Assembly (NCBI RefSeq): GCF_004681125.1
Contig: NZ_SIHO01000002.1
Location: 558,001-622,000, forward strand
Source: Glacieibacterium arshaanense
Lineage (GTDB): Bacteria; Pseudomonadota; Alphaproteobacteria; Sphingomonadales; Sphingomonadaceae
Direction: 5' to 3'
DNA: 64,000 bases
Below the pieces are notes generated by a model, which made no database searches, was not told the DNA's origin, and saw nothing but the letters and a program-made list of their open reading frames with translations. Positions 14,305 through 43,738 of the stretch are shown here, one piece after another. Made by a program: the position numbers and the translations under genes. Positions within the stretch are counted from its first letter, which is position 1. The number at the start of each line of letters is the position of its first letter.

Positions 14305-15417
14305 ATGAGCACGGGGGCTAGCGAAAGTCTGCTCGCGGTGGGCCTGATGTCGGGCACGTCGATGGACGGCATCGATGCGGCGCTGATCCGCACCGACGGC
14401 CATGACCTGGTGGCGCCGTTGGCATTCCACAGCGTCGCCTATGACGAACCGATGCGCGCGCGGCTGCGCGGTGCGATTGCGGCGGCGCTGACAATGGAAC
14501 GACCGGCCCCGCACGCCGAAATTGACGCGGTGGCCCGCGACCAGACGCTCGCGCACGCAGCGGCGGTCAAGGCGTTGCTGGCGCAGGCCGGCGTGGCGGC
14601 GGCCGATGTCGCGCTCGTCGGCTTCCACGGCCAGACCATCGCGCACCGCCCCGACCGGCGCTGGACGTGGCAGATCGGCGACGGCGCGCTGCTGGCGCGC
14701 GAAACCGGCATCACCGTCGTGCATGACTTCCGTTGCGCCGATGTCGAAAGCGGCGGGCAGGGCGCGCCCTTGGCCCCTGCCTATCACCGCGCTTTGGTAT
14801 CGGGATTCCGCAGCCAGGGGCCGGTCGCGGTGCTCAACCTCGGCGGCGTCGGCAACATTACCTGGTTTGCCGGTGACGACTGGGGGTCGTTCGATACCGG
14901 CCCCGGCAATGCACTGATCGACGACTGGGTCCGCGCCGAAGCCGGGCTGAGCCATGACGCCGGCGGTGCACTGGCCGCGTCGGGCAGTGTCCACGAACAG
15001 GTCGTCGCGGCAATGGCCGACCTGCCGTGGTTCGACCTTGCACCGCCCAAATCGCTCGACCGCCACGACTTCTCGCTCGGCGCGGCGCGCGGGCTCAGCC
15101 TCGCCGACGGCGCCGCGACGCTGACGGCGTTCACCGCGGTGACCGTCGCGCTGGCGCTCAACCACGTCCCCGCGCGCCCGTTGCGGCTGCTGGTCTGCGG
15201 CGGCGGCCGCCACAATGCGACGCTGATGGCGATGCTGGCGGCGCGAACCGGCGTCCAAACGTTGCCTGTCGAAGCGGCGGGCTGGAACGGCGACGCGCTC
15301 GAAGCCGAAGCCTTTGCCTATCTCGGTGCGCGGACGCTTATGGGCCTGCCGATCAGCTTCCCGCAAACCACCGGCGTCGCAGCCCCGATGTGCGGCGGGG
15401 TGATTTCACGCCCCTGA
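14305..15417 (+). CDS. anmK: Anhydro-N-acetylmuramic acid kinase
   Basis: Phosphorylates and opens 1,6-anhydro-MurNAc during peptidoglycan recycling, giving MurNAc-6-phosphate. The 370-residue protein opens with the ATP-binding [13 protein letters not shown] loop, followed by [32 protein letters not shown] and a C-terminal VCGGGRHN motif of the sugar-kinase fold. I chose ATG 14305, which has a GGGAGG ribosome site, over the in-frame GTG 9 bases upstream. The last 12 bases overlap the 3' end of the XRE-type gene. Confidence 0.96.
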
Positions 15418-16302
15418 TGGCGGTTCGAACAGCGGCCCGCGCGCCATCGACTGTGAGGCGCGCATGACCAGCAGCAGTTCGCCGCCATTGGCGAACGCCG
15501 TCGGGCCAAAGTCGCGGCACAGGTGGCGGCGCACATCGTCGGGAACCGATTCGCCCGGGATCACCGTACTCTGTGCGCACAGCGCCTCGAACGTCGCCTT
15601 ATCGGCATCGTCATTGCCCGACAGGTCGCCGACGCGTTCGAGCAGCACCGGCTCGGCGACCGGTGAACCGCTCGAATCGGCGAGGCGCGTGAGGGTCAGG
15701 CCGTCGAGCACTTCGGCCTTCAGCCTTGCGACCAGATTCAATATGGCGAACACGAGGTTGGTGTTTTCACTGTCGGCGACGAATGCGAGCATTTGATTGT
15801 CGAACAACACGGCGTAGCCATCGAGCCGCATCTTCACGGCACCCAGCGCAATCACCATCGCGCCGCCACCGTTGCAACTGATCATCAAATGTTCGCGTAT
15901 GAATTTGCCGGGGGCCAGTGCTGATGGTCGCGTCGAGCGCCAGAAACCCTCATACGCCCAGCCACGACGTGCGACATTGTCGCGCGCCTCCTCGATCAAG
16001 GGCGCGGCCAGCAACGGTTCGAGGACATCGTCGGGGCGAAGCCGCAACGTCGGCGGTGTCGTGACACCAAACCGCTTCGCCAGCTCGGCGATATCGACAT
16101 CCCAGTCGAGCAGTGAAAAGCCCGCTTGATAGCCGGCAATCCATACAGTCAGCCGTTCGAGACTGCGTGCCGAAGGGTGGACGGCACCGGAAACCCAGCG
16201 GCCGACCAGCGGCTTGTCGACGCCCATTTCGGCGGCAGCGCGGCCGCGCGAGATTGATAGCGCCTTGAGGATCAATTCGAGCTTTGTCGCAAAGCTGGCC
16301 AT
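15406..16302 (-). CDS. XRE-type transcriptional regulator with a large unknown C-terminal domain
   Basis: A 298-residue protein. Residues 5-55 form a Cro/C1-type helix-turn-helix (LILKALSISRGRAAAEMGV then KPLVGRWVSGAVHPSARSL). The rest, about 240 residues, resembles no family I recognise; it has a hydrophobic core region and could be a ligand or partner domain. It is divergent from the first BLUF gene, and the palindrome TGCAAGGGTTGCA lies between them. By analogy with the E. coli BluR-BluF pair it may be the DNA-binding partner of the BLUF photosensors; that is inference from position. The upstream in-frame start at 16350 would overlap the operator-like region, so I prefer 16302. Confidence 0.8.
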   Translation of the reverse strand: MASFATKLELILKALSISRGRAAAEMGVDKPLVGRWVSGAVHPSARSLERLTVWIAGYQAGFSLLDWDVDIAELAKRFGVTTPPTLRLRPDDVLEPLLAAPLIEEARDNVARRGWAYEGFWRSTRPSALAPGKFIREHLMISCNGGGAMVIALGAVKMRLDGYAVLFDNQMLAFVADSENTNLVFAILNLVARLKAEVLDGLTLTRLADSSGSPVAEPVLLERVGDLSGNDDADKATFEALCAQSTVIPGESVPDDVRRHLCRDFGPTAFANGGELLLVMRASQSMARGPLFEPPSGA

Positions 16303-16353
16303 GCAAAACCACCCGTCACACAGGCGAAACAAATGCGACACAAACTGCAAAAA

Positions 16354-16366
16354 TGCAAGGGTTGCA
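16354..16366. promoter_or_regulatory. Palindromic operator candidate between regulator and BLUF gene
   Basis: TGCAA-GGG-TTGCA is a perfect palindrome 52 bases upstream of the XRE-type start and 110 bases upstream of the first BLUF start. Another TGCAA half site (16346-16350) is close by. The same half sites recur upstream of the second BLUF gene. Confidence 0.5.
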
Positions 16367-16475
16367 CATATTTAATGCATCGCTAAGGCTGTCGCTGCAC
16401 GTTTCACTAATGTAACTAATTTCATTAACTCTGCATATCAAAGCCTTTTTGATGTTGCTGGAGGGAGCAGCTGTG

Positions 16476-17054
16476 ATGGTAGCGAAGTGCACTGGGTGTC
16501 TTATCGAGCGGCGCGATCAACGGACTGTCGATTGCAACTTGCGTAGCGGGGCAAGTTGCGCGGCGACGACGGGGCCAACTGGCCGACGCTTTTATCAGGT
16601 TCTTTACCTTGGCGAACACGGGATGTCGGACGCGGCGCTCGACGGTTTCATCGACGACATCGAGGCCAAAACGGCCGAGCGGGCGCGGACATTCCGGCTC
16701 ACCGGTGCACTGATGTTGACCAAGAACGTATTTGCGCAACTGCTGGAAGGTCCGCGTGACGAGGTCGAAGAATGCCTTGCCGGGCTGAAGAGCGACCCGC
16801 GCCACGCCAATGCGCTGTTGGTCGAGGAAGGCGCGGTCGGCGCGCGGCAGTTCAGTGGCTGGTCCGTGTCCTATGCCGATGCCGCAAGCTTCATCGGCCG
16901 CACAATGTTCCGGGCAATCGCCGGCGCGGCACTGGGTGGGCGCGGCGACATCAATCGACTCGTCCGGTTGATGCTTGAAGCCGGCGACTGCAACGACGTC
17001 GGCCTTGATGCCGCGCTGCAAGCCGTCGCCGATCAGGCGCCGAACATGGCATAA
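16476..17054 (+). CDS. BLUF-domain blue-light sensor protein, copy 1
   Basis: A 192-residue soluble protein with a BLUF flavin-binding domain at about residues 38-135. FYQVLYLGE carries the Tyr; FAQLLEGP carries the Gln that switches hydrogen bonds with FAD; DPRHANALL and the Trp in FSGWSVSY are also present. The Asn usually found just before the ITG motif is not apparent in RARTFRLTG, and Val replaces the Met after the Trp, so the photocycle may be unusual. Ahead of the domain is C5-x2-C8-x11-C20-x7-C28. A C-terminal helical part follows. The start at 16476, behind GAGGGAG, matches the start of copy 2 exactly, giving equal lengths. Confidence 0.88.
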   Translation: MVAKCTGCLIERRDQRTVDCNLRSGASCAATTGPTGRRFYQVLYLGEHGMSDAALDGFIDDIEAKTAERARTFRLTGALMLTKNVFAQLLEGPRDEVEECLAGLKSDPRHANALLVEEGAVGARQFSGWSVSYADAASFIGRTMFRAIAGAALGGRGDINRLVRLMLEAGDCNDVGLDAALQAVADQAPNMA

Positions 17055-17131
17055 ACCGCGCGCTCGAACGCGCCGAACTGCGCCATCGCCGGCGAACGGC
17101 AGCATCTGCATCAGCAGCACGCCCGTGCCAA
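17052..17131 (-). pseudogene. Remnant of a serine-hydrolase 3' end between the BLUF copies
   Basis: This stretch aligns with 17991-18090, the 3' end of the serine-hydrolase gene, including the block encoding GVLLMQMLPFA. It carries an 8-base deletion that breaks the frame, and the similarity stops abruptly near 17131. It marks the scar of a tandem duplication that copied a BLUF gene together with the end of its convergent neighbour. Confidence 0.75.
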
Positions 17132-17415
17132 AGGCAGTAGCGCACAGCAATATCCATCGGCAGCAAAAAGCCGTCATTGCAGGTGGTGATCGCGCACGTC
17201 AGTCGGGCATGCCTGCGATGCAGGATTGCCTGTCGCGTGCGAGAAACAAACCCTACCCGCAATGAAAAAATGCAACCAGTGCACCTAGTTGCATTCAGTT
17301 GCATTGGCTTTGCCGATTTTTTTGTGACGTCGATGGAACCTTTGGCGCCGCGTGACGTTTCTTCGTCGATGCGCGGCAACGCACACTTTTCTGGTTTCTG
17401 GATGGAGTTGTTGGG
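17132..17415. promoter_or_regulatory. Upstream region of the second BLUF gene with TGCAA/TTGCA half sites
   Basis: No gene is visible here. At 17271-17303 there is a TGCAA followed by two TTGCA sites in the direct repeat AGTTGCATTC-AGTTGCATTG, spaced exactly 10 bases apart, so they face the same side of the helix. The half sites match the palindrome at 16354-16366, which suggests the same regulator binds ahead of both BLUF genes. Confidence 0.45.
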
Positions 17416-17994
17416 ATGGCAACAACATGTATCGGGTGTCTGATTGAACGACGGGGTCAGCGAACCGCCGATTGCGACAGGGACCGCGGTCGCAACTGCG
17501 CGGCAACTGCAGACTCCACTGGCTGGCGCTTCTATCAAATCCTCTATCTCGGCGAACACGGGCTTGCGGACGACACGCTCGAGTGCTGCATCGACGATAT
17601 CCGCGCCGAAACGGCCGCACGGGCGCGGGCATTCCGGCTGACCGGCGGGTTGATGTTGACCAAAAGGGGCTTCGCGCAACTGCTCGAAGGGCCGCGCGCC
17701 GACGTCGAAAACTGCCTGGCGGCGCTGCGCAGCGACCCGCGCCACGCCAATGGCTTGTTGCTTGAAGAAGGCGAAGTGGGCGCCAGGCAGTTCGACGGCT
17801 GGTCGACGTCCTATGCCGGCCCCGCGAGCTTTGTCGGCCGCATGACATTCCGGGCGATCACCGCGTCGGCGTTCGGCGCGCGCGGCGAAATCAACCGACT
17901 GGTGCGGCTGATGGTCGAAGCCGACGTACGCGACAGCGGCGACATTGACGCCCTGGCGCTAGATGCGGGCGATCACGCATTCACTGCGGCATAG
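17416..17994 (+). CDS. BLUF-domain blue-light sensor protein, copy 2
   Basis: A 192-residue paralogue of the protein at 16476, the same length and collinear throughout. It has FYQILYLGE, FAQLLEGP, DPRHANGLL and FDGWSTSY, with FRLTG again lacking the usual Asn. The N-terminal cysteine array is identical in spacing (C-x2-C-x11-C-x7-C), although most residues between the third and fourth cysteines differ. The C-terminal helix (GEINRLVRLMVEA) is also shared. The last 22 bases overlap the 3' end of the convergent serine-hydrolase gene. Both copies look intact, so they may heterodimerise or sense different light levels. Confidence 0.88.
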   Translation: MATTCIGCLIERRGQRTADCDRDRGRNCAATADSTGWRFYQILYLGEHGLADDTLECCIDDIRAETAARARAFRLTGGLMLTKRGFAQLLEGPRADVENCLAALRSDPRHANGLLLEEGEVGARQFDGWSTSYAGPASFVGRMTFRAITASAFGARGEINRLVRLMVEADVRDSGDIDALALDAGDHAFTAA

Positions 17995-19133
17995 ACCGCG
18001 CGCTCGAAAGCCCCGAAAAGCGCCATCGCCTGCGCGTCGGCGAACGGCAGCATCTGCATCAGCAGCACGCCCGCGACGTTGGTCGCGGGGTCCGCCCAAT
18101 AGTAGCAGTTGGCGAGCCCGGCCCAGGCGAGACTGCCGGCGCTGCGGCCATCGGCGCCGGGCGCCGGGTTGATCTGCCAGCTCAGCCCCCAGTGCGCTGG
18201 GGCGCCCTGTGCCAGATCGAGGTCGTTTGACAGGTGCGGCGCGGCGCTGGTCAGTGTGCGCAGGGCGACGTCGCCAAGGTGGTTGGCCTGCATGACGCGC
18301 ACGGTTTCTGGCTTGAGGATGTGCGCGCCGTTGAGCGTGCCGCCGTTCAGGACCATCTGCAGGAAGCGCAGATAATCATGCGCCGTGCCGTGCAGCCCGC
18401 CGCCGCCGCCGTGGAATTCTGGGTCTTCGGCTGTGGCGAAATCGATCGTGGCGATGCTGCCGTCGGCGGCGCGTGCGGTCATGCCGGCGTGGCGCGTCGC
18501 CCAGCTGGCGCGCGGGGTGAAGCTGGTATCGACCATGCCCAGCGGTGCGGCGATATGGTCTTCGACATAGGCGTCGAGCGCTTTGCCCGACGCCGCCTCG
18601 ACCGCCTTGCCGGCCCAATCAATACCGATGCCATATTCCCAGTTGGTGCCGGGATCGAACATCAGCGGTGTGTTCAACGCGGCGTTCAATGAGGTGCCAA
18701 GGCTCGGGATCCCGAGCACCTTCGCCGCCTTGGCGAAGTCGGCGTTCCACATGTCATAGACATGGCCCGAGGTGTGGGTGAGCAGGTGGCGCAGTGTGAT
18801 CGGGCGCTTGGGGGCGCGCAACTTGACGCTGCCATCGGCGGCAAAGCCGTCGAACACCTGCGCGCGGCCGAGTTCGGGGAGCAGGTTGCCCAGCGGTGCG
18901 TCAAGGTCGAGCTTGCCGGCTTCGACGAGCTGCATCGCGGCGGTCGCGGTCACCGCTTTGGTCATCGAGGCGAGCCAGAAAATGGAGTCCTCGGTCATCG
19001 GGGTGGGGGTGCCGGGCGCCAGCCTGCCGAAGGCCTGCGAAAACAATGACTTGCCGTTGTGCGACGCGGCAGCGACGAAGCCGGGGGTAAGGTGCTGCGC
19101 CGATGCGGCGGACAGAGCTTGGGCGATGGTCAT
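17973..19133 (-). CDS. Serine hydrolase of the beta-lactamase/family VIII esterase type
   Basis: A 386-residue protein with the class C beta-lactamase fold: catalytic S56-M-T-K59, a Tyr in the NWEYGIG segment as the probable YxN equivalent, and an HxG-like GGGGLHGTAHDY. No convincing signal peptide is present, which favours a cytosolic esterase or peptidase over a periplasmic beta-lactamase. Size is normal for EstB-like esterases. It converges on the second BLUF gene with a 22-base overlap, and its 3' end has been duplicated at 17052-17131. The substrate is unknown. Confidence 0.88.
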   Translation of the reverse strand: MTIAQALSAASAQHLTPGFVAAASHNGKSLFSQAFGRLAPGTPTPMTEDSIFWLASMTKAVTATAAMQLVEAGKLDLDAPLGNLLPELGRAQVFDGFAADGSVKLRAPKRPITLRHLLTHTSGHVYDMWNADFAKAAKVLGIPSLGTSLNAALNTPLMFDPGTNWEYGIGIDWAGKAVEAASGKALDAYVEDHIAAPLGMVDTSFTPRASWATRHAGMTARAADGSIATIDFATAEDPEFHGGGGGLHGTAHDYLRFLQMVLNGGTLNGAHILKPETVRVMQANHLGDVALRTLTSAAPHLSNDLDLAQGAPAHWGLSWQINPAPGADGRSAGSLAWAGLANCYYWADPATNVAGVLLMQMLPFADAQAMALFGAFERAVYAAVNA

Positions 19134-26935: not shown

Positions 26936-28372
26936 CTAGTCGTTAATCTGGCGCTTGAAGAAGCGCGGGATCTCCATGTCGGCACCGGCATCGGTCGAGA
27001 CTTCGGGCTCGGGCGCCAGCGTTGCTGGACGCGCCGGCTTGGTCGAGCGGCTGAGGTTGAGCATCTTCTGGAACAGCGAAGGCGCCGGTTCGGCCTCGGC
27101 TTCGTCTTCGAGCACCATCGGCTCGGGCTCGACCGGTGCCGTGACGGCAGCGATTGGCTGGTCGCCGGGGGTGAAGCGGAAGCTGGCAACCGGTGCTTCC
27201 TCGACGGGCTCAAGATCGAGCTCGGCGACTTCGGGGGCTTCGAGGACCAGCGGCGCCTCCTCGATTTCGACAGACTCGACAACCGCCGCGACCACCGGTT
27301 CGGCAACCGCAGGTGTCGCCGGCCGTGCCGCTGATGTGGTCGGGAAGGCGGTACGGACGCCCCCCCATTCGGACGATTTGGTCGGGACGGCCACCGACGG
27401 CGTGCGGGCGACGGCGTCGATGCCGGTGGCGACCACCGACACGCGCATCACGCCGTCGAGGTCGGGGTTGAACGCCGAGCCGACGATGATGTTGGCTTCG
27501 GGATCGACCATTTCGCGGATATAGGTCGCGGCTTCATCGACTTCCATCAGGCGGAGGTCATCGCCGCCGGTGATGTTGATGATGACGCCCTTGGCGCCGC
27601 GCATGCTGACTTCGTCGAGCAGCGGGTTGGCGATGGCCTTCTCTGCGGCTTCGATGGCGCGGTTGTCGCCCGAAGCCTCGCCGGTCCCCATCATCGCCTT
27701 GCCCATTTCGGACATGACGGTGCGGATATCGGCAAAGTCCAGGTTGATCAGGCCGGGCATGATCATCAGGTCGGTGATGCCGCGCACGCCCTGGTGCAGG
27801 ACCTGGTCGGCCATCGCAAACGCTTCCTTGAAGGTCGTGTTGGCGTTGGCGATCAGGAACAGGTTCTGGTTGGGGATGATGATCAGTGTGTCGACGTGCT
27901 TCTGCAGTTCGGCGATGCCTTCTTCGGCCGAACGCATCCGGCGGATGCCTTCGAACGCGAACGGCTTGGTGACGACACCGACGGTCAGGATGCCTTTTTC
28001 GCGCGCCGCGCGGGCGACGACGGGGGCCGCACCGGTGCCGGTGCCGCCGCCCATGCCGGCGGTGATGAACACCATGTGCGCGCCTTCGAGGCTGGCATCA
28101 AGCTGGTCGATGGTTTCCTCGGCGGCAGCACGGCCGATTTCGGGGCGCGAGCCGGCGCCCAGGCCCTGGGTGATCTTCAGGCCGAGCTGGATGCGGGTTT
28201 CGGCCTGGCTGGCGGCGAGCGCCTGTGCATCGGTGTTCGCCACGACGAAATCGACGCCCTGCAGATTGGCGTTGATCATGTTGGTGACTGCGTTGCCGCC
28301 CGCGCCGCCGACACCGATAACGGTAATCCGGGGCTTGAGCTCGGTCAGTTCGGGTCGTTTCAGTTCAAGCAT
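26936..28372 (-). CDS. ftsZ: Cell division protein FtsZ
   Basis: The tubulin-like GTPase forms the division ring. The 478-residue protein has [13 protein letters not shown], the tubulin signature GGGTGTG (108-114) and the T7 region NLDFADI. A long Pro/Ala/Glu-rich linker (about residues 330-460) leads to the conserved C-terminal peptide IPRFFKRQ, which binds FtsA. The long linker is common in alphaproteobacteria. The start has a GAGGGAG ribosome site, and unlike the rest of the cluster the gene is separated from its upstream neighbour, by 75 bases. That leaves room for its own promoter. Confidence 0.98.
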
Positions 28373-28447
28373 TTCAGGTCTCCCTCTATCCCTGTTTGGC
28401 GCCCGGATTGGGCCTTGTTGCGGTAAAGTTCGTTTCTTGGTCTTGGA

Positions 28448-29731
28448 TCAGATTGATGACTTCAGGCGATCGAACATGTTGAGCCAGCGCCCGCCGCCGC
28501 TGCGGGGGTTGGATGGTGCAGGTGTCGGTCCCTTGTTCCACAGGTCGGGGACGTCTTCGGCGGCAAACAGTGCGAGCCCGGCGAGCGTTGCGAAGGCGCA
28601 GCTCGATTGGGCGTCGGGCAATCCGGTGAGGCCACGCGGGCGGGCAATGCGGACGTTGCGGCCCAGCACGCCCTGGGCGAAATCGGCGATGGCCTTGAGT
28701 TCCGCGCCACCGCCGGTCAGCACGACCTGACGCGCCTGCGGGCCGGTGAAGCCCATGGCGATCAGGCTTTTGGCCACTTCGCCGAACAGCATGTCGAGGC
28801 GGTGGCGAATGACGCCGACAATCTGCGCCTTTGGGACGCGCTGGCCCTCGGCACCTTCGTCATCGCTGACCGGCGGGATCTCGATGACTTCGTGATTATC
28901 CTTTTGCACGGTGATGGCAGCACCATGCAGGGTCTTCAGCCGCTCGGCATGGCTGCGCTTGGTGGCAAAGGCGCTGGCGATGTCGTTGGTGATATCGCCG
29001 GCACCCATGGCGATCGACGCGAGGCCGACAAGCTGCCCGCCAGCGTGCACCGCGACATTGGTGACACCTGCGCCAATTTCGACCAGCGCGACCCCAAGCT
29101 CGCGTTCTTCTCGCGCCAGACAGGCGAGGCTCGAAGCGACTGGCGCGGCGACGATAGTGTGAACGCCGAGGTGGGCAGTGCGCACGACAAGGTCGAGATT
29201 GCGGATCGGCGGCGTCTCGGCGGTGACGACATGAATGTCGACGCCTAGACGGTCGGCATGGAAGCCAAACGGATTGGCGACGCCTGTCAGCCCGTCGATC
29301 GTGTAAAGCGCCGGTTGCGCATGCAGCACGGCGCGGGTGCCGGGGTCGATGCGGGCGCGCCCGGCGGCGAGCAACGTGTCGATGTCGATCTTGGTGATGG
29401 CATGGCCGGAAATGTCGATTTCAACGGTGACGACCTCGCTGTCGAGCCCGCCTGCAGAAATGTTGACATACACAGCATCGGCCGTGACGCCGGCGCTGCG
29501 TTCGGCCTGGTCCATCGCCGCGCGGATCGCACTTTCGGTCTTTTCCATGTCGGCGACCAGCCCGCGCCGGACACCCTGACAGGCGCGCTGGCCGGTGCCG
29601 ATGACACGCGGTTCATTACCTTCGCTGCCGATCATCGCGATCAACGCAGCGACCTTCGACGTGCCGACATCGAGCACGGCAATGGTGCGTTCGCTGCGGC
29701 CGACGCCGCGGCTTACCTTGGCGGCGCTCAT
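28448..29731 (-). CDS. ftsA: Cell division protein FtsA
   Basis: Actin-like ATPase that tethers FtsZ to the membrane. The 427-residue protein starts with the actin phosphate-1 motif VLDVGTSKVAALI, has VEIGAGVTNVAVH and VVLTGGGAEL, and ends in an amphipathic, basic tail (GRWLNMFDRLKSSI) that should insert in the membrane. Its ATG overlaps the ftsQ stop by 4 bases. Confidence 0.97.
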   Translation of the reverse strand: MSAAKVSRGVGRSERTIAVLDVGTSKVAALIAMIGSEGNEPRVIGTGQRACQGVRRGLVADMEKTESAIRAAMDQAERSAGVTADAVYVNISAGGLDSEVVTVEIDISGHAITKIDIDTLLAAGRARIDPGTRAVLHAQPALYTIDGLTGVANPFGFHADRLGVDIHVVTAETPPIRNLDLVVRTAHLGVHTIVAAPVASSLACLAREERELGVALVEIGAGVTNVAVHAGGQLVGLASIAMGAGDITNDIASAFATKRSHAERLKTLHGAAITVQKDNHEVIEIPPVSDDEGAEGQRVPKAQIVGVIRHRLDMLFGEVAKSLIAMGFTGPQARQVVLTGGGAELKAIADFAQGVLGRNVRIARPRGLTGLPDAQSSCAFATLAGLALFAAEDVPDLWNKGPTPAPSNPRSGGGRWLNMFDRLKSSI

Positions 29732-30606
29732 ATCGACATCTCGCGCGGCGTAGGGTTGGTACTGCCGGCGTCGCTGCGCACCCGCACTGTCATCTTGCCG
29801 GGCAAGCGCATGTCGAAGCGCGCAAAGCCGCGGTCGAGCAGCTGGTTGCTGCGGTTGAGCTTGGCGAAGCTGGCGAGCGCCTTGGCGGCCGCTGCACGGC
29901 CTTCGGGCAGCGCCAGCGTCTCGCCCGACTTGAAACGCACATCCCAGCGACGTGTGCCGACGAACGTCGCGGCATCGACCTTGTCAGCGATATCGGGCTG
30001 GGTCGCGAGCAGCATCAGCAAGTCATGCGCCTGAATGTTGGCACCCGGTCCGACGACAAGCGGCAGCTTGGCATATTCCAGAAGATTCTCGTTAGTCAGC
30101 TTTCTGCCACTCTTGTCGATGACCGTAAGCTGATGCTGGTATTGCCAAAGCGCCATCGGCGCGCGCTCGACGATCGTAACGCGCAGCGTATCGGGCAGTC
30201 GTCGCGAAACGCTGGCGTCGGCAACCCAAGGCAGTGCGAGCAGTCTGGCGCGTGTTGCATCAAGATCGACGAGCAGCATCGAGTTGGTCGGACCATCGAG
30301 CGTGGCACCATAGATTTTCAACTTGGGTGCCTTTTGAACGCCCGCAACCTCGACATGCTTGACTTCGAAGCCGGCGCGGCCTGCGGCCTGCGCGGTCGCC
30401 ATCCACCATTGCTGCGGCAGTCCGAGCAGGGTGATGACCACCACGCCCGCCGCCAGCGCCAACAAGATGAACGCCGTAATGGCGTTGCGGCGCAATACGG
30501 CCGCCGAAATTGGCACTGCGATGCGCCGCAGTGATGGTTGTGGCGCCGGGCGCCGCGCGGCAGGGCGCTTGCGGACTTCGCCGCGCTTGAGGGCGACGCT
30601 GCTCAT
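29728..30606 (-). CDS. ftsQ: Cell division protein FtsQ
   Basis: A bitopic divisome protein linking early and late division proteins. The 292-residue sequence has a basic cytoplasmic start, one membrane helix (about residues 43-65), a POTRA-like part (GFEVKHVEVAGVQ) and a beta domain with LPWVADASVSRRLPDTLRVTIVE split over the family block. It overlaps ddl and ftsA by 4 bases each. Confidence 0.95.
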   Translation of the reverse strand: MSSVALKRGEVRKRPAARRPAPQPSLRRIAVPISAAVLRRNAITAFILLALAAGVVVITLLGLPQQWWMATAQAAGRAGFEVKHVEVAGVQKAPKLKIYGATLDGPTNSMLLVDLDATRARLLALPWVADASVSRRLPDTLRVTIVERAPMALWQYQHQLTVIDKSGRKLTNENLLEYAKLPLVVGPGANIQAHDLLMLLATQPDIADKVDAATFVGTRRWDVRFKSGETLALPEGRAAAAKALASFAKLNRSNQLLDRGFARFDMRLPGKMTVRVRSDAGSTNPTPREMSI

Positions 30607-31526
30607 GCCAGCGCACTCGCGACAATACGCGCTACCAGCGCGTCGTAATCGATACCGCGATACTTGGCCTGCTCGGGCACCAGGCTGAGCGGAGTCATGC
30701 CCGGCTGGGTATTGACCTCAAGCAGGTAAAGTCCGGCCAGGCCCTGCGCGGGATCGTAGCGGAAATCCGAGCGCGTCGCGCCGCAGCAACCCAGCGCGAT
30801 GTGCGCATCGACCGCCATTTTCATCGCCGCCTGCGTGACGTCGGCGGGCAATTCAGCGGGGCATTGGTGAACGGTCAGTCCGTCGGTGTATTTGGCGTCA
30901 TAGTCATAAAAGCCCTGCGTCGGCATCAGTTCGGTAACCGCCAACGCCTCGCCGTCGAGCACCGCAACGGTCAGTTCCTTGCCAGCGATGAACGGCTCGG
31001 CGAGCAGTTCGTCGAACTGCTGCCACGGGCCTTCGGCAGAGTGTGCGATCGGATTGCCATAGTTCGATGCGTCGGTAACGATGGCAACGCCGACCGACGA
31101 GCCCTCGTTGACGGGCTTCAGTACATAGGGGCGCGGCAGCGGGTCGCCGTCGTGCAGCGATGCCGACTTGACGACATGGCCACCGGGCATGCGGATGCCA
31201 CGCGGCGCGAGGATCGCCTTGGTGAGCTGCTTGTCGATGGCAATCGCCGAGGCGGTCAGCCCCGAATGCGTGTATCTGAGGCCCATCAGGTCGAGCATGC
31301 CCTGCACCGTGCCGTCTTCGCCGGGCGTGCCGTGCAGCGCGTTGAACACCACATCGGGTGCAATCTCGCGCAGCCGCAACGCGACATCGCGGTCCATGTC
31401 GATTTCGGTGACCTTGTGGCCGATGCGGCGCAATGCTGCAGCGATCCCCGCACCCGACGTCAGCGAGACCTGGCGCTCGTTCGACCACCCGCCCATCAGC
31501 ACGGCCACATGAAGCCGTGCCGTCAT
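30603..31526 (-). CDS. ddl: D-alanine--D-alanine ligase
   Basis: Makes the D-Ala-D-Ala end of the peptidoglycan stem. The 307-residue ATP-grasp enzyme has VLMGGWSNERQVSL, HGTPGEDGTVQG, PVNEGSSVGVAI and LEVNTQPGMTPLSLVPEQA. The ATG at 31526 overlaps the murB stop (ATGA) and begins exactly at the family start; the frame is open 10 codons further, but that is inside murB. Confidence 0.97.
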   Translation of the reverse strand: MTARLHVAVLMGGWSNERQVSLTSGAGIAAALRRIGHKVTEIDMDRDVALRLREIAPDVVFNALHGTPGEDGTVQGMLDLMGLRYTHSGLTASAIAIDKQLTKAILAPRGIRMPGGHVVKSASLHDGDPLPRPYVLKPVNEGSSVGVAIVTDASNYGNPIAHSAEGPWQQFDELLAEPFIAGKELTVAVLDGEALAVTELMPTQGFYDYDAKYTDGLTVHQCPAELPADVTQAAMKMAVDAHIALGCCGATRSDFRYDPAQGLAGLYLLEVNTQPGMTPLSLVPEQAKYRGIDYDALVARIVASALA

Positions 31527-32434
31527 TGCTTCACACCCACGCGCTGGATTTCCCATTCGAGTTCAATGCCCGACTGCGCCTTGACGCGCGTCCGGACTTC
31601 CTCGCCCAGCGCTTCGATGTCGGCACTACTCGCCTTGCCGGTGTTAAGCAGGAAGTTCGTGTGCTTTTCGCTGACTTGCGCGCCGCCGATCTTCAGCCCG
31701 CGGCAGCCGGCCGCATCGACGAGCTGCCAGGCTTTCTCGCCCGGCGGATTCTTGAACGTCGAGCCGCCGGTGCGCGAGCGCAGCGGCTGTGAGGCTTCGC
31801 GCTCGGCAGCAATGCGATCCATTTCGGCGGTGACCGCGGCCTTGTCGCCGGGGACACCACGAAACCGCGCGCTGACCACGACGGCGCCGTCTTCAAGCCC
31901 CGAATGGCGATACGAAAAGCCCAAGGCAGCGGCAGCCAAAGTTTCGACGCGGCCATCCCGGTGGACGACGGTCGCGTCGATCAGGCAGTCGGCGACTTCG
32001 CGGCCATAGGCACCGGCGTTCATCCGCACCGCGCCGCCGACCGTGCCGGGGATGCCGCGCAAGAATTCCAGGCCCGCGAGCGATGCGTCGCGCGCCGCGC
32101 TGGCGACGGTGATGCCCATGGCTGCCGCACCCGCCGTCACGACATCGCTTTCCACGCTGACCGATGCAAAACGCTTCGGCAAGCGAACGACAACGCCGGG
32201 GACGCCGCCATCGCGGACGATGAGGTTCGACCCGACGCCGACGGGCAGCACCGGCACATCGGCGGGCAGTGCTGTCAGGAAGGTCGACAGGTCATCGACA
32301 TCGGCAGGACGCACCAGCCACTCGGCCTCGCCGCCGGTGCGGAACCAGATGAAGTCGGCAAGGCTGGCATGCGCGGCAACACTACCACGCAGCGGCGGCA
32401 GGGCGGGATGGGCAAGGCGCGGCGCGGCGTTCAT
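31523..32434 (-). CDS. murB: UDP-N-acetylenolpyruvoylglucosamine reductase
   Basis: FAD enzyme that reduces UDP-GlcNAc-enolpyruvate to UDP-MurNAc. The 303-residue type I protein shows [26 protein letters not shown] (FAD binding), the catalytic [15 protein letters not shown] block with Tyr, and [13 protein letters not shown] with the Ser and Glu region. It overlaps murC and ddl by 4 bases each. Confidence 0.97.
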
Positions 32435-33882
32435 CCGCCACCCCGCGCGGTGTTGATGGCACTGGCCAGGCCGGCGGCCCATTTGGTGATGTCACCGGCA
32501 CCCAGGCAGATGATCATGTCATCGGGGGCAATCATCGCCGCAAGGCGCACGGCAAGGTCATCGGCGCCGGTCACGGTGCCGACCGAGCGATGGCCGGCGC
32601 GCTTCAGTCCGGTCGCCAGTGCATCGCTGTCGACGCCGGGGATCGGCGCTTCGCCCGCCGTGTAGACCGGCGCGACCAGCACCGCATCGGCATCGTTGAA
32701 CGCCGTCTGGAACTCGGCCATCAGCGACTGCAGCCGCGTGAAGCGGTGCGGCTGGACCACCGCAATGACGCGGCCCTGTGCGCCTTCCCGCGCGGCGGCC
32801 AGCACAGCCTTGATCTCGACGGGGTGATGCCCATAGTCATCGATGATCGTCGCAGTGCCGCCTTCGACGATGACTTCGCCGACCTTGGTGAAGCGTCGCT
32901 TGACGCCGCCGAAGCGTGCGAAGCCGGTGATGATGTCGGCATCGGCAATGCCGAGCTCGACCGCGACGGCGACCGCCGACAGCGCATTCTGGACATTGTG
33001 GCGGCCGGGCATCGGCAGCATCAGATCGTCGATACGGCGCGTGCTGCCGTCGCGGTTGCGGATGACGGCCGCGAAGCGGTTGCCGCCCGGCACTGGCGTC
33101 ACGGCCTCGCCGCGGACATCGGCCTGCGCGCTGAAACCATAGGTCACGATGCGGCGGTCCTGCACGCGCGGCAGGATAGCCTGGACTTCGGGATGGTCGA
33201 TGCACAGGACGGCGGCGCCATAGAACGGCACATGCTCGACGAACTGGACGAAGGCGTCCTTGACCTTGTCGAAGCTGCCGTAGTGATCAAGGTGTTCGGG
33301 ATCGATGTTGGTGACGACGCCGATCGTGCCGCCGAGCCGCAAGAAGCTGCCGTCGCTTTCATCGGCTTCAACAACCATCCACTCACCGGCGCCAAGCCGG
33401 GCGTTCGAGCCGTAGCTGTTGATGATGCCGCCGTTGATGACCGTCGGGTCAAAGCCTGCGGCATCGAGCAGCGCTGCCACCATCGACGTCGTGGTGGTCT
33501 TGCCGTGCGTTCCGGCGACGGCGACGCAGGACTTCAGTCGCATCAGCTCTGCAAGCATTTCGGCGCGTCGCACAACGGGGATGCGGCGTTCGAGCGCGCG
33601 CTCGACTTCGGGATTGTCGCGGCGGATCGCGGTTGAAGTCACGACAACGGCTGCGTCGCCGAGGTTTTCGGCCTTGTGGCCAATGGTGACATTGATGCCG
33701 CGGTCGCGCAGGCCCTGCACGACATAACCTTCGGCGACGTCCGAGCCCTGCACCTTGAAGCCGAGGTTGTGCATGACTTCGGCGATGCCCGACATGCCGA
33801 TGCCGCCGATGCCGATAAAGTGGATCGTGCCGAGCTGGCGGCCGAACGCCGGCGAGACGAGCGGAGTGGGACGGGTACTCAT
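32431..33882 (-). CDS. murC: UDP-N-acetylmuramate--L-alanine ligase
   Basis: Adds the first amino acid to UDP-MurNAc. The 483-residue Mur ligase has the N-terminal [15 protein letters not shown] loop, ATP loop [11 protein letters not shown], the central [15 protein letters not shown] and the [10 protein letters not shown] motif. The start is an ATG overlapping the murG stop. Confidence 0.97.
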
Positions 33883-34976
33883 GCGGCCTCCGCAACGGCA
33901 ATAACAAGGTCGGCCAGCGCCGACGCGGCATCAGGACGGCCGGCCAGTCGTGCGCCGGCCGCAGCGCGCGCCAGTGCCACGGGATCGCCCAGCCAGGTGA
34001 CGAGTGCAGCGCTGACCGCAGCAGGCGTGAACGCCGGTTGTGCAATGACCTGCGCGCCACCCAGGTCGGCAATGGCGCGGGCGTTGTCGGTCTGGTGGTC
34101 GTCGGTGGCAATCGGCAGCGGCACGAGGATAGACGGGCGCCCGGCGACAGCGAGTTCGGCAACCGTCGACGCTCCGGCGCGCGCCACGACGACATGGCTG
34201 GCGGCGATTTCGGCGGGCAGGTCGACGAAATAGGCGGCGACCGTTGGTTCAATGCCAGCGGCGCGGTAGGCGGCGGTGACGGCGGCGGCATCCTCGTCGC
34301 GGGCCTGATGCACGACATCTAGCCGCGCGCGCAACGCGTCGGGCAGTGCGGCAACCGCTGCGGGGACGACCTGCGACAGGATGCTGGCGCCCTGGCTGCC
34401 GCCGGTGACAAGCAACCGCAGCCGCGGCGCATCGGCAAGGAACGGCACGGCGCGTGCGGCGATGACTTCGGGGCGCACCGGATTGCCCGTCAACACCGTC
34501 TTGCCCGCCCAGCCGGCAGCGAGGCGGCGGACCTTGGCATAGCTGGTGGCAATGCGGTCGACGCGCGGCGCGAGGAAGCGGTTGACGCGGCCGAGCACGG
34601 CGTTCTGTTCATGGATGACGGTGGGCAGCTTCATCGACAGTGCCGCCAGCAGGCCGGGCAGCGCCGGATAGCCGCCGAAGCCGACGACAGCGCGCGGGCG
34701 GATGTCGGCGAACAGCCGGCGCGCCGTGCCGCGGCCGCGCCAGATGCTCGCGGCGACCTTGGGCAACGCCAGCATGCCGCTGCGACCGGTACTTGCGGCA
34801 TCGACGACCGTACGCGGGAAACCTTCAAAGAGTCCGGGAAAGCGCAGGCCGCGCGCGTCGGTGACGAGGTGGACCGCATGCCCGCGCGCGCGCAGCTCAG
34901 TTGCCAGCACATGCGCGGGCACCATGTGACCGCCGGTGCCACCGGCGGCGAGTACGAAGGGGCGGCCAGCGGTCAC
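33879..34976 (-). CDS. murG: UDP-GlcNAc:lipid I GlcNAc transferase MurG
   Basis: Makes lipid II at the inner face of the membrane. The 365-residue GT28 protein has the glycine-rich [55 protein letters not shown] and the donor-binding [21 protein letters not shown] regions. ATGA overlaps at both ends. Confidence 0.97.
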
Positions 34977-36178
34977 GCCGCCTGCCAGCGGCGCGCATAG
35001 GGCGACGCCTTGAGGAACGGATTACGTCGCGTCAGCGCCAGCAAAAGACCCATGCCGATCGCCAGCGCGAGGTACGACGACCCGCCATGGCTGATGAACG
35101 GCAGCGTCATGCCCTTGGACGGCAAAAGCTTGAGATTCACGGCCATATTGATCGCCGCCTGAAGTCCGAATTGTGTCACTAGCCCCGCCGCTGCGAGAAA
35201 GATGAAGGGATCTTCCTCATCAAGCAGTTGTAGCAAAACCCGGATGACAATCGCAAGATATAGTATTGCCAGCAGCATGCAGGCGATGGCGCCGAACTCC
35301 TCGCCGATCACCGAAAAAATGTAATCGGTGTGCGGTTCAGGCAGCTTGAACTTCATCCGGCCTTCGCCCGGACCGGTACCGAATAGGCCGCCGGCGCGGA
35401 AGCAGTCGAGCGCGCGGTCAATCTGATAGGTGTCGCCGCCGCCGGTGATGAAACGGTCGATGCGGCTGGTGACGTGCGGCACGAACAGATACGCGACGCC
35501 GATGCCACCGGCGGCAACAACGATGAGGATGCCGATGACCGACAGCCCCATGCCGGCGAGCACCGCCTGAGCCAGCCACACCGCGCTGAACAATGCCGTC
35601 TGGCCGAAATCGGGCTGTTTGACGAGCAACCCCGCGACGACGAGCAGCAACAGGAACGATAGTTGCATTGTCGGCATCGTCGGGTCCTCAATGCGTGCCG
35701 ACAGCAGCCACGCCGTGGTCACGATGAACAGTGGCTTGAGGAACTCGGAGGGCTGGAAGCCGAACCCCGGCAACTGCAGCCAGCGCGTCGCGCCATTGGC
35801 TTCATGGCCGAGGATCGGCACCAGCATCAGCGCGACGATGCAGAACGCCGTACCGCCAATCGCCAGGCGCTTGGCCCAGACAATCGGCAGCATCGAAACC
35901 GCCAGCATCAACGGCACGCCGGCAATGATCCACAGGATCTGGCGCTTGAGGTAATACAGATCGCCGACGACCACTGTGCCGCCCGAATAACGATGCGCTG
36001 CTGCGGGCGATGCCGCAGCCACCGCCAATGCGCCGCAGCCGATGAGCATCAACACCATGACCAGCAGCGGCCGGTCAATCGTCCAGAACCAACGGCCCAG
36101 CGCCGAACGGTTGTTGCGCGACAGCGTTGCCGACAGCGAGTTAGTCAGCGAATTGGCGGGGGCGGCGCGTGATGCCAT
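34973..36178 (-). CDS. ftsW: Peptidoglycan glycosyltransferase FtsW
   Basis: SEDS-family polymerase of septal peptidoglycan, paired with FtsI. The 401-residue protein has about ten membrane helices. GATRWLQLPGFGFQPSEF is the SEDS signature, and KGMTLPFISHGGSS the C-terminal family motif. Its ATG overlaps the murD stop as TGATG; a GTG one codon earlier is an alternative start. Confidence 0.97.
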   Translation of the reverse strand: MASRAAPANSLTNSLSATLSRNNRSALGRWFWTIDRPLLVMVLMLIGCGALAVAAASPAAAHRYSGGTVVVGDLYYLKRQILWIIAGVPLMLAVSMLPIVWAKRLAIGGTAFCIVALMLVPILGHEANGATRWLQLPGFGFQPSEFLKPLFIVTTAWLLSARIEDPTMPTMQLSFLLLLVVAGLLVKQPDFGQTALFSAVWLAQAVLAGMGLSVIGILIVVAAGGIGVAYLFVPHVTSRIDRFITGGGDTYQIDRALDCFRAGGLFGTGPGEGRMKFKLPEPHTDYIFSVIGEEFGAIACMLLAILYLAIVIRVLLQLLDEEDPFIFLAAAGLVTQFGLQAAINMAVNLKLLPSKGMTLPFISHGGSSYLALAIGMGLLLALTRRNPFLKASPYARRWQAA

Positions 36179-37449
36179 CACAGACTCTCCACAATGCTGA
36201 CGAAGGCGCGGCCGCGCGCTTCGAAATCGCTGAACTGGTCGAACGAGGCGCAGGCCGGTGACAGCAACACCGTGTCACCCGGGCGTGCGGCGGCAGCGGC
36301 AGTGCGCGTCGCGACATCGAGCGTGCCGGCTTCGATGACGGGAACATGCGGCTTCAAGATTGCAGAGAACACCGGCATCGCCTCGCCGATCAGATAGGCG
36401 GCGGCGACATGGCCAAGCTGCGGCAGGCAGGCGTCGAGTTCGGGAGTCTTGGCGAGGCCGCCGGCAATCCAGTGGATGCGCGGGTAGGCAGCGAGCGCCG
36501 GTGCCGTCGACGTCGGATTGGTCGCCTTGCTGTCATTGACGAACAACACGCCGTTTAACTCGCGCACCCGCTCCATGCGGTGTTCGAGGCCGGGGTAGCT
36601 CGCCAATCCGGCAGCGATTTGCGCGTCGGTTAGTCCCAGCGCGCGCACTGCGGCAATCGCAGCGGCGGCATTCTGGGCGTTGTGCGGACCCTGCAGGCTC
36701 GGCCAGTCGGCCTGTTCGGCGCCGATGTCGGCGGCGGCTACGGTGACCAGCTTCGCGCTGACCGAGGCGGCAATGGCACGCGTGTAATCGTCTTCGGCGG
36801 CGATGACCGCCGTATGGGCATCCGACTGCATCGCGAACAAACGCGCCTTGGCTGCGGCGTAACCGGCCATGTCGCCGTGGCGGTCGAGGTGGTCGGGGGT
36901 AATGTTGAGCAGCACCGCGACGTCGCAGTCGAGGCTGAAAGTCAGGTCAAGCTGGTACGACGACAGCTCGAGGACATAAACGCCGCCGGCGGGCAGTGGC
37001 TCCTGCGCCATGATCGGCAGTCCGATATTGCCGCCAAGCCGTGCGCTCACTCCGGAGCTTTGCAGTAGATGGTGGATCAGCGCCGTGGTCGTCGATTTGC
37101 CGTTGGTGCCGGTAATGCCGACGACGCGGTGCGGCGGCAGTTCGGCACGTGCCTGGGCGAACAGTTCGATGTCGCCGATGATCTTGACGCCGGCGCTGGC
37201 TGCACGCTGCGTCAGCGGATGCGTGCGTAGCGGCACGCCGGGCGACACCACCAATGCGTCAAGACTGACCAGCTTCGCGTCATGCAGATCCACCAGCGGC
37301 ACCGCACAGCTTTCGCGCGCTACTGGCTTATCGTCCCAGGCGACGACATCGGCGCCGCTCGCGACCAGCGCGTCGATGACCGCCTTGCCGGTGCGCGCCA
37401 GGCCGTAGACCGCGTAGCGTTTACCGCGAAAGGCGTTTGCCGTGATCAC
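36178..37449 (-). CDS. murD: UDP-N-acetylmuramoylalanine--D-glutamate ligase
   Basis: Adds D-glutamate to the stem peptide. The 423-residue ligase has [14 protein letters not shown] at the N-terminus, ATP loop [27 protein letters not shown], and [16 protein letters not shown] at 37449 overlaps the mraY stop (GTGA) and sits right before the family start; the frame is open upstream only in antisense-like sequence inside mraY. Confidence 0.96.
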
Positions 37450-38525
37450 CGCAGCTTCAGCGTGGCGAGACCCGCGAGCGCCAGCACGATCGCGACGATC
37501 CAGAAGCGGATCACCACGGTCGACTCGCTCCAGCCGAGATGTTCGAAATGGTGGTGGATCGGTGCCATCTTGAAGACGCGCTTGCCGGTGGTCTTGAAGC
37601 TGACGACCTGGACGATGACACTGACGGTTTCGAGCACGAACAGCCCGCCGATTAGCAGCAACACGATTTCGTGACGCGTAATGACGGCGATCATGCCGAG
37701 CGCGCCGCCCAATGCGAGGCTGCCGGTATCGCCCATGAACACCGCGGCCGGCGGCGCGTTGTACCACAGGAAGCCGAGGCAGGCGCCGATGACTGCCGCC
37801 GTAAAGATGGCCAGCTCGCCCGAGCCGGCGACATGGTGGATGCCGAGGTAGTCGGCGAATTTGATGTTGCCGGCGAGATAGGCGATCACGCCCAGCGTCA
37901 GCGCCGCAATGATGACCGGCATCGTCGCCAACCCGTCGAGCCCGTCGGTCAAGTTCACCGCATTGCCGAACCCCGCGATGATGAACGATGCAAAGGCGAT
38001 GTAGAACAGCCCGAGCGCCAGCCCGCCGTCCTTGAGCAGCGGCAAGTACAGCGTTGAATCACCTGTGTACCAGACTACCCAGGCACATGCGGCACCAGCG
38101 ATGGCGAACTCCATCAACAGCCGGATGCGGCCTGAAACGCCCTTGTGCGAGCGCTTGGTGACCTTGTCATAGTCATCCATGAAGCCGATCGCGCCGAAGC
38201 CCAGCGTCACAAACAGGCACGCCCAGGTGTAGCCGTTGCCAAGGTCCATCCACAGCAAGGTCGAAAGCGTCATCGAAATCAGGATGAGCAGGCCGCCCAT
38301 TGTCGGGGTGCCGCGCTTGGTGATGAGGTGCGATGCCGGCCCGTCTTCGCGGATCGGCTGGCCTTCCTTGCCCTGCATCTTGCGCAACCAGATAATGAAG
38401 CGCGGTCCGGCAATCAGCGCAATGGCGAGCGCAGTGATTAGCGCTGCGCCGCTGCGGAAGGTGATGTAGCGGAAGAGGTTGGAAAAGCCTTCGAAGCCGG
38501 CCAGGTCGGCGAGCACATAAATCAT
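37446..38525 (-). CDS. mraY: Phospho-N-acetylmuramoyl-pentapeptide transferase
   Basis: Transfers phospho-MurNAc-pentapeptide to undecaprenyl phosphate to give lipid I. The 359-residue protein has about ten membrane helices, with the cytoplasmic catalytic loops: [35 protein letters not shown] and the PIHHHFE loop. ATGA overlap with murF. Confidence 0.98.
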
Positions 38526-39910
38526 GACGCCACATCCCCCTGCAGTTCAGCCACCAGCCGGCCGAGGCCGACACTGTTCGAGCCCTTGACGAGCAAAACA
38601 TCATCCTCGGCGAGTTCGCCGTTCACCGCCGCGAGCGCAGCCGCCGCATCAGGCACATAGAGCGTGCTGAGTTTCTGCCGAAGCGTTGCTGCAAGCGGTT
38701 TGATTTCGTCGCCAACCAGAATAGCGCGATCGACCCCGGCGGCCGCGACAGCGCTGGCGAGCCCAAGGTGATAGTCATCCGAGCCGCTGCCGAGTTCACG
38801 CATCGCGCCGAGCACGGCAAGCCGTCGACCGCGACGCAACGGACGAATTTCGCCGAGGACTGCAAGTGCCGCCGCCATCGAAGCGGGGTTGGCGTTGTAG
38901 CTTTCGTCGATGATGACGGCGCTGCCGTCACCACGCGCTATACGTAGCCGCTTGCCGCGCCCTGGCAGGTCCGACAGTTCGGCGAGCGCCAGTCCGGCGA
39001 GCGCCAGATCGCCGCCGGCGGCCTGCACGGCGGCGAGCACCGCGAGCGCATTGCCGAGCCAGTGGCGGCCCGCCATGCCAACCTTGAACGTCAGCCGCGT
39101 GCCCAGCACATCGGCGGTGGCGGTGGTGCAATCGGGAAGGATGGCATAATCGAGTGCGCGAACATCGGCGCCTTCGCCCAGACCGAAGGTGATGATGCGC
39201 GCCGCGTGCGGTTTGGCATGGGCGATCAGTCGGTCGCGGTGGATGCTGTCGAACGGAATGATGGCGATGCCGCCGGGCTCGAGCCCGCCGAACACTTCAC
39301 CCTTGGCGTCGGCAATCGCTTCCTCGCTGGCGAAGAATTCACGGTGTGCGCTGGCAATCCATGTGATGATCGCGATGTTGGGCCGCACCAGCTGCGTCAG
39401 CGCGGCCAATTCGCCGGCATGGTTCATGCCCATTTCGAAGACGCCGAAGCGGCTATCGGCGGGCATCCGCGACAGGCTCAGCGGCACGCCGGTGTGGTTG
39501 TTGTACGACTTGACCGACGCATGCGTGTGGCCCGGCGCGAAACGGTCGAGCGCGGCACGCAGCGCCTCTTTGACTCCCGTCTTGCCGACACTGCCCGTGA
39601 CGCCGATGATCGTGGCGGCGGTACGTGCCCGTGCAGCGCGACCAAGTGCGTCGAGTGCGGCGGTAGTATCGGCGACCAGCACATGCGGTGCGCCGGCCGG
39701 CGTGCTGACCAGCAGTCCCGAAGCGCCGCGCTCGAGCGCAGTCGGGATGAAGCGGTGGCCGTCGGTGGTTTCGCCCTTGAGCGCCACGAACAATTCGCCG
39801 CCGATGACTTCACGCGAATCGAAGCAGACACCGCCCGCATTGAACGGCGCGGATACGGTGCCGCCTGTGGCTGTGGCAATCGCGTCTGCTGTCCAGAGCG
39901 GGGCGGTCAT
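38522..39910 (-). CDS. murF: UDP-MurNAc-tripeptide--D-Ala-D-Ala ligase
   Basis: Completes the pentapeptide by adding D-Ala-D-Ala. The 462-residue ligase has the substrate-binding FDSRE, ATP loop [15 protein letters not shown] (with GSVGKT in place of the usual TNGKT), the [12 protein letters not shown] segment and [12 protein letters not shown] start at ATG 39910, which overlaps the murE stop; a second ATG three codons upstream lies inside murE. Confidence 0.96.
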
Positions 39911-43076: not shown

Positions 43077-43735
43077 TACATCGGCGCCTTCGGCGTGCTG
43101 GTGTTGTCAACGACTGCCGGCGCGGCAGCGGCGGCGCTGGTGACCGACTCAACCAGTGACGAATCGAGCCCAGCGGAGACCGCCGCAGGCTTGGCCGGCA
43201 CTTTGGTTGCGACTGCCGGCGCCATTGCTGCCGGTGCGGTGATCAGCCTTGGCCGGCTGGCACTTGAGACGGCATAGTTGATAGTCTTCATGCCAGGCGC
43301 GAGCTGGTTTGCCGTGCGCGGTGTGACCGGCAGCAGCGGTGCGGCGGTAACCGGCGCCGGCGCGGCAGTAGCCGGCGCGACGTTGACAGGCGCCGTCGCG
43401 ACCGGCGCCGGTGCCGCCTGATGCGGTGCCCCGGGGGCGTAGCTGGCAAGCTGGACGCCGTCGCGGACAAACTGCCCAACCTTGGGCGGGCTCAGCGCGA
43501 GCGCCGTATCGTTCCAACGCTGCAACTCGGGTAGGCGGGCGCGGGTGCGGACTTCGGACTGCAACATGCGGATGTCATGCGCGTCGGCAACGACCTGCGC
43601 CCGCAGCTTGTCGACGGCGGCGCGTTCGGACGACACCTTGAGCGAAATCGTGTAGCACCCCAGTGCAGCCAGCATGGCGACCGAGATCAGTGCGCCATTG
43701 CCAATGAAGCGCGATCGACCAAATGAACTCGACAT
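43076..43735 (-). CDS. ftsL: Cell division protein FtsL with extended C-terminus
   Basis: A bitopic protein that with FtsB/FtsQ controls FtsWI. Residues 1-14 are cytoplasmic, about 15-32 form the membrane helix (ALISVAMLAALGCYTISL), and 35-75 a heptad-like coiled coil (SERAAVDKLRAQ on). The remaining 130 or so residues are Ala/Pro/Val-rich and look disordered. Most FtsL proteins are 100-130 residues long, so the 219-residue form is unusual. Identity rests on position between rsmH and ftsI plus topology. Confidence 0.88.
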   Translation of the reverse strand: MSSSFGRSRFIGNGALISVAMLAALGCYTISLKVSSERAAVDKLRAQVVADAHDIRMLQSEVRTRARLPELQRWNDTALALSPPKVGQFVRDGVQLASYAPGAPHQAAPAPVATAPVNVAPATAAPAPVTAAPLLPVTPRTANQLAPGMKTINYAVSSASRPRLITAPAAMAPAVATKVPAKPAAVSAGLDSSLVESVTSAAAAAPAVVDNTSTPKAPM

Positions 43736-43738
43736 GGG

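Follow-up and report, generated by a model that had tools for sequence, protein, structure and literature searches.

In Escherichia coli, BluR is a MerR repressor and BluF a BLUF-EAL protein (PMC3509220). In Rhodobacter, the BLUF protein AppA acts as an antirepressor in the AppA/PpsR system. Among the MmyB-like XRE regulators, MltR has been crystallized with myristate (PMC3406030). Here we describe a locus in a 64-kb stretch of the Glacieibacterium arshaanense genome (the whole stretch is called the window below), in which a gene for an XRE-type regulator is transcribed divergently from a pair of BLUF genes, BLUF1 and BLUF2. An original prediction from the same DNA had described the locus as a light-sensing module of a make-up not described before, and a literature search of partial coverage likewise found no such system. 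The best reading of our results, to which we give a probability of roughly 60%, is that of a local, ligand-responsive regulator under its own control, with two non-canonical BLUF genes as its targets.

The regulator gene (15406–16302, minus strand) starts with an ATG at 16302 and encodes a protein of 298 residues with an HTH_3/XRE-like N-terminus and a C-terminal predicted barrel. BLUF1 (16476–17054) and BLUF2 (17416–17994) lie on the plus strand and encode 192 residues each. These open reading frames, their coordinates and their divergent orientation were borne out by the analysis, and the arrangement of regulator and BLUF is shared by all three genus genomes. An upstream TTG at 16350, which would extend the regulator to 314 residues, was rejected as the start; it is unlikely because the homologues align from MxxFxxKL onward, and they start at the equivalent of the ATG at 16302.

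The original prediction had pointed to TGCAA/TTGCA sites shared by both sides of the locus. As bare pentamers, these sites occur at chance level in the two intergenic stretches (3 against 2.3 expected, p = 0.40; 4 against 2.7, p = 0.30), and their counts were rejected as evidence for an operator. What stands is the full palindrome TGCAAN3TTGCA, and the copy that the original prediction had singled out for a binding test is the right one. This copy, operator A, TGCAAGGGTTGCA, is 13 bp long (16354–16366) and lies in the intergenic stretch that the regulator shares with BLUF1, 51 bp ahead of the regulator ATG. It is the sole 10/10 palindrome in the window, where four places match in at least 9 of the 10 positions. 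Operator B, TGCAACCAGTGCA, is a 9/10 match at 17271–17283, upstream of BLUF2. Both congeners keep operator A in the corresponding position, as TGCAACAGTTGCA and TGCACCCGTTGCA, and one of them (G002) keeps operator B as TGCAACCGGTGCA, a form that two other regulator homologues likewise have upstream.

The palindrome was then looked for at homologous loci in the GTDB genome collection, 79 in number, where the 300 bp ahead of the regulator were scanned for matches of at least 9/10. Such a match is present at 34 of the 79, whereas shuffled sequences would lead one to expect 0.16; the rate in control 300-bp stretches is 0.6%. Usually the site lies 50–150 bp ahead of the regulator start, which fits autoregulation, and its commonest forms are TGCAACGGTTGCA and TGCAACCGTTGCA. 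In an alignment of 60 homologues, the helix-turn-helix (HTH) residues V28-D29-K30-S/P-L-V-G-R35-W36 are near-invariant, and this recognition-helix region (VDKSLVGRW in the consensus form) fits one site common to the family. We predict that TGCAAN3TTGCA is an operator of the regulator family. Because the palindrome recurs upstream of the homologues, autoregulation is most likely. The location of operator A between the regulator and BLUF1, and of operator B before BLUF2, makes it likely that both BLUF genes are controlled as well, by this regulator or by a paralogue sharing the site. A wider regulon in the host genome was considered and rejected. Six perfect palindromes are present there. Two stand at regulator genes, and the remaining four, within or close to unrelated open reading frames, show no obvious theme (about one is expected by chance, by hand calculation); there is no perfect site at the photosynthesis genes around 361 kb of contig C3. 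Scanning the intergenic stretches for sigma-70 promoters gave no match, and such a scan is uninformative for alphaproteobacteria.

Outside the genus, the regulator has a life without BLUF. The 79 loci, obtained by searching genome contigs, come from Alphaproteobacteria including Phenylobacterium, Caulobacter, Maricaulis, Parvularcula, Sphingomonas, and Croceicoccus. In the contig stretches around them, the BLUF profile finds a BLUF protein only at the two orthologue-bearing Polymorphobacter loci and at none of the other 77. The gene pairing expected in relatives is thus kept within the genus and absent beyond it. At the other loci, the nearest divergent gene begins like a signal peptide in 25 of 38 cases, compared with 70 of 423 other open reading frames (p = 2.5e-10, by a simple home-made signal-peptide rule). 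These neighbours include PEP-CTERM proteins and, as judged by eye, YadA-like repeats, glycine-rich lipoproteins, and ADYC neighbours. From the exported-protein neighbours and the BLUF-free loci it follows that the regulator and its operator form a local module with a changing target. The gene that faces the regulator has the look of an exchangeable target, not of an obligatory sensor, and BLUF is one target of the module, in one genus. In another genome (G074, loci L021 and L030), regulator homologues stand in two places beside NG-rich pentapeptide-like repeat proteins (LNGISLQGVQFNGI) and an ADYC-domain protein.

The regulator itself has two domains. Its HTH domain (residues 4–56; 16135–16293, minus strand) is modelled by AlphaFold2 as helices 4–14, 19–26, 30–38, and 45–56, with a high predicted local distance difference test score (pLDDT). 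The window protein matches HTH_3 at E = 6.6e-4 with 20.1 bits, under the curated cut-off of 23. Across the family, 56 of 60 homologues match this profile at E ≤ 0.01 (best 1.1e-7), HTH_3 and HTH_31 are the only DNA-binding profiles matched, with no MerR-type profile among them. No Pfam or NCBIfam profile covers the roughly 240 residues behind the HTH, in this protein or in any of the 60 members, and the MmyB/MltR ligand-binding domain profile matches none of them either, which upholds the earlier description of an XRE-type regulator with an unknown domain of 240 residues.

The AlphaFold2 model built from the 60 homologues has a mean pLDDT of 90.8 and consists of the four-helix HTH, a linker helix, eight consecutive strands, and short helices. 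The strands (residues 119–225; 15628–15948, minus strand) are predicted to form an up-and-down beta-barrel of the lipocalin/avidin/nitrobindin kind. In a Foldseek search of the PDB, calycin folds (lipocalins, nitrobindin, avidins) take up the top of the list, with crustacyanin as the best match (E = 1.3e-3), followed by nitrobindin (E = 7.6e-3) and by bradavidin2 with a target-normalized TM score of 0.73 at 2.5 Å. Calycins are marked by a GxW on the first strand and an arginine on the last. In the regulator family, Gly119 and Trp121 on the first strand are each conserved in at least 90% of the 60 homologues and Arg223 on the last strand in 100%. Sequence searches of the PDB with the barrel, single or as a profile, returned nothing significant. 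Based on the model, the second domain is a probable ligand-binding calycin-like barrel, so the regulator probably has a ligand of its own. The protein appears to belong to an undescribed alphaproteobacterial family. The host genome has two paralogues. The first (C3:257327-258199, 48% identity) lies between a DUF885 gene and a phosphoenolpyruvate carboxylase gene, and the second (C1:1215465-1216304, 41% identity) beside a pyrroloquinoline quinone dehydrogenase gene.

Taken together, we propose that the regulator acts as a one-component transcription factor, with an XRE-type HTH joined to a calycin-like barrel that is the probable binding site of a small and likely hydrophobic ligand. A dimer of the regulator would bind TGCAAN3TTGCA. 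At operator A it would repress both divergent genes, its own and BLUF1, and through operator B also BLUF2, and ligand binding would alter the repression. The BLUF proteins, duplicated in situ, would be the targets, that is, the output of the regulator. With their altered flavin site they are possibly weakly photoactive, but more likely to serve as redox or metal reporters or as protein-protein adaptors.

Several points weigh against this proposal. Repression rather than activation is an assumption, and binding to the operators is predicted. No site of at least 9/10 is present upstream of 45 of the 79 homologues, so some of these may use an altered site or may not autoregulate. With TGCAACCGTTGCA upstream of its gene, the paralogue at C3:257 kb could recognize these operators too and cause cross-talk. 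Since no Foldseek match falls below E = 0.001, the assignment of its class rests on fold resemblance plus three residues. On the BLUF side, the AlphaFold2 model of BLUF2, made from a five-sequence alignment, is unusable (pLDDT 36), and the probable phototrophy of the host leaves a relevance of light possible.

Both neighbours of the regulator are indeed BLUF proteins (PF04940; BLUF1, E = 5e-17 and 62.2 bits; BLUF2, E = 1e-15 and 57.6 bits; cut-off 25), but their scores of around 60 bits lie below the 70–107 bits that most BLUFs of related genomes reach. An alignment compared six BLUFs of the genus, five of them linked to the regulator, with BLUF domains of 43 other proteins. The asparagine that contacts the flavin is alanine in all six (A70 in BLUF1 and BLUF2) and asparagine in 43 of 43 others. 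The signal-relaying methionine on beta5 is replaced by valine or threonine (V131 in BLUF1, T131 in BLUF2), while 37 of the 43 others keep it. The glutamine and the tryptophan (W129 in BLUF1) are present in all six and the tyrosine in five; Y44 and Q88, which belong to the flavin hydrogen-bond triad, are invariant in the five regulator-linked copies. A further BLUF-like protein of the congener G001 (L176:379-939) has lost both the asparagine and, as read by eye, the tyrosine, and decay of BLUF seems general in this genus.

According to the review PMC5899715, the asparagine is strictly conserved in BLUF and bonds the flavin C4=O; the same review, citing Kita 2005, states that its replacement did not abolish photoactivity. 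On the other hand, mutation of the methionine leaves the spectral shift in place and removes the conformational change, and PixD M93A blocks the light-induced change (PMC5899715). By analogy with these mutants, photochemistry of BLUF1 and BLUF2 is possible in principle, and signalling of the usual kind is doubtful. The two proteins also share an N-terminal extension with four cysteines, C5-x2-C8-x11-C20-x7-C28 (16476–16589, plus strand, in BLUF1). C5, C8, and C28 are invariant in the five regulator-linked copies; C20 is absent from the BLUF1 of G002, which has a cysteine nearby. The extension is not matched in relatives, and its composition suggests metal or redox sensing. The BLUF genes are under purifying selection, with ratios of nonsynonymous to synonymous substitution rates of 0.14–0.6, and the proteins are for this reason taken to be kept functional.

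The two BLUF genes are a segmental tandem duplication, which the original prediction did not mention, nor did it mention the missing asparagine. They are 73% identical in DNA by blastn, and the duplicated stretch runs beyond the BLUF1 stop by about 70 bp, where it matches the 3′ end of the downstream gene up to about 18073. This gene (17973–19133, minus strand) encodes a serine hydrolase of the beta-lactamase fold, AcmB-like; it converges on BLUF2, overlaps it by 22 bp at its 3′ end, and is the source of the scar left between BLUF1 and BLUF2 at 17055–17126. G002 has the same scar, and G001 has a single BLUF gene at the locus with the hydrolase directly after it. Compared with G002, the block at 17127–17994 is more alike (intergenic stretch 91%, BLUF2 93% identical) than the regulator (80%) or BLUF1 (71%), which suggests a later recombination of the BLUF2 block between lineages.

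The loss of the asparagine and the methionine raises the possibility, still rather unlikely in our view, that the BLUFs have no photochemistry at all and survive as redox- or metal-responsive or structural partners through their Cys-rich N-terminus. The cysteine extension peculiar to these copies, the additional loss of the tyrosine in the other BLUF-like protein of G001, and the purifying selection would all agree with this. It fits less well that the regulator-linked copies still have the tyrosine, glutamine, and tryptophan and largely also the DxRH motif, more than useless flavin chemistry predicts, that C20 is missing from one of the five copies, and that metal binding is an idea from sequence. 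This alternative concerns the BLUFs only and is compatible with our explanation of the regulator.

The alternative nearest to the original prediction is that one or both BLUFs bind flavin adenine dinucleotide, change shape in blue light, and remove the regulator from its operators, as in BluF/BluR and AppA/PpsR. The divergent pairing in the three genomes, the retained tyrosine, glutamine, and tryptophan, the photoactivity reported after asparagine replacement, and the photosynthetic reaction-centre genes of the host speak for it. However, the alanine common to all genus BLUFs, a methionine replacement of the kind that is blocking in PixD, a regulator that does not need BLUF at 77 of 79 loci, and a likely effector domain within the regulator speak against the BLUFs as light sensors acting on it, and we regard the antirepressor as possible but unsupported, and as improbable. 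Of the light-module interpretation, the conserved regulator/BLUF unit with shared operators therefore stands, but light sensing is not established. A double-input switch for light and ligand can also be imagined, in which an HTH-calycin repressor had its target swapped from exported-protein genes to duplicated BLUFs in one phototrophic genus and the rewired BLUFs, with their Asn→Ala and Met→Val/Thr changes and Cys-rich N-terminus, return a redox or light signal to the repressor; we consider it speculative and improbable too. Chance adjacency, in which the regulator autoregulates only and the BLUF genes are neighbours by accident within one genus, would suit the linkage in three genomes and none outside and an operator A that autoregulation adequately accounts for, but it is unlikely given operator B, 0.9 kb away before BLUF2 and kept in G002 against the 0.6% control rate.

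The host genome is 3.26 Mb in size. Within the named collection, it is closest to uncultured Polymorphobacter, whose regulators are 78% and 75% identical. Genes of the pufL/pufM type are found at C3:360850-362514, about 210 kb from the window, which makes anoxygenic phototrophy of the organism probable. Elsewhere in the window, 26936–44674 holds an ordinary division and cell-wall cluster (ftsZ, ftsA, ddl, ftsW, mur ligases, a penicillin-binding protein gene, and mraW).

The more surprising parts of the locus are an HTH-barrel family with a clear operator and BLUFs kept by selection without the flavin asparagine. The former provides a predicted operator that is testable in many Caulobacterales, Sphingomonadales, and Parvularculales; the operator sequence TGCAACGGTTGCA was not found in the literature search of partial coverage. 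The latter is a natural experiment on the role of BLUF under compromised photochemistry. Should the BLUF proteins turn out to act on the regulator, this would add a new class of partner for BLUF.

Compared with known systems, the predicted barrel resembles the calycins (lipocalins, avidins, nitrobindin) in its eight predicted up-and-down strands, the GxW on the first strand, and the arginine on the last, but it is fused to a DNA-binding domain, would be cytoplasmic, and has no detectable sequence similarity to them. MmyB-like regulators such as MltR also combine an XRE HTH with a C-terminal ligand-binding domain; in the present family, the C-terminal part lacks any Pfam match and is predicted to be calycin-like. 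The BLUF proteins share with the short BLUFs PixD, BlrB, and BlsA a stand-alone domain with C-terminal helices and the tyrosine and glutamine, while the N-terminal cysteine extension and the lost asparagine and methionine set them apart. AppA is the closest BLUF in the PDB (E = 2.7e-10), also belongs to a phototrophic host, and has a Cys-rich region attached to its BLUF domain. In AppA, this region is C-terminal; here the cysteines are N-terminal with other spacing, there is no PpsR-type partner, and the asparagine and methionine, which AppA keeps together with the glutamine and tryptophan (Asn45, Gln63, Trp104, Met106), are gone. As in E. coli BluR/BluF, a gene for a DNA-binding repressor, as predicted here, adjoins a BLUF gene. 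However, an XRE/HTH_3 domain with a putative barrel takes the place of the MerR protein, and two BLUFs with an altered flavin site and no EAL domain take the place of BluF.

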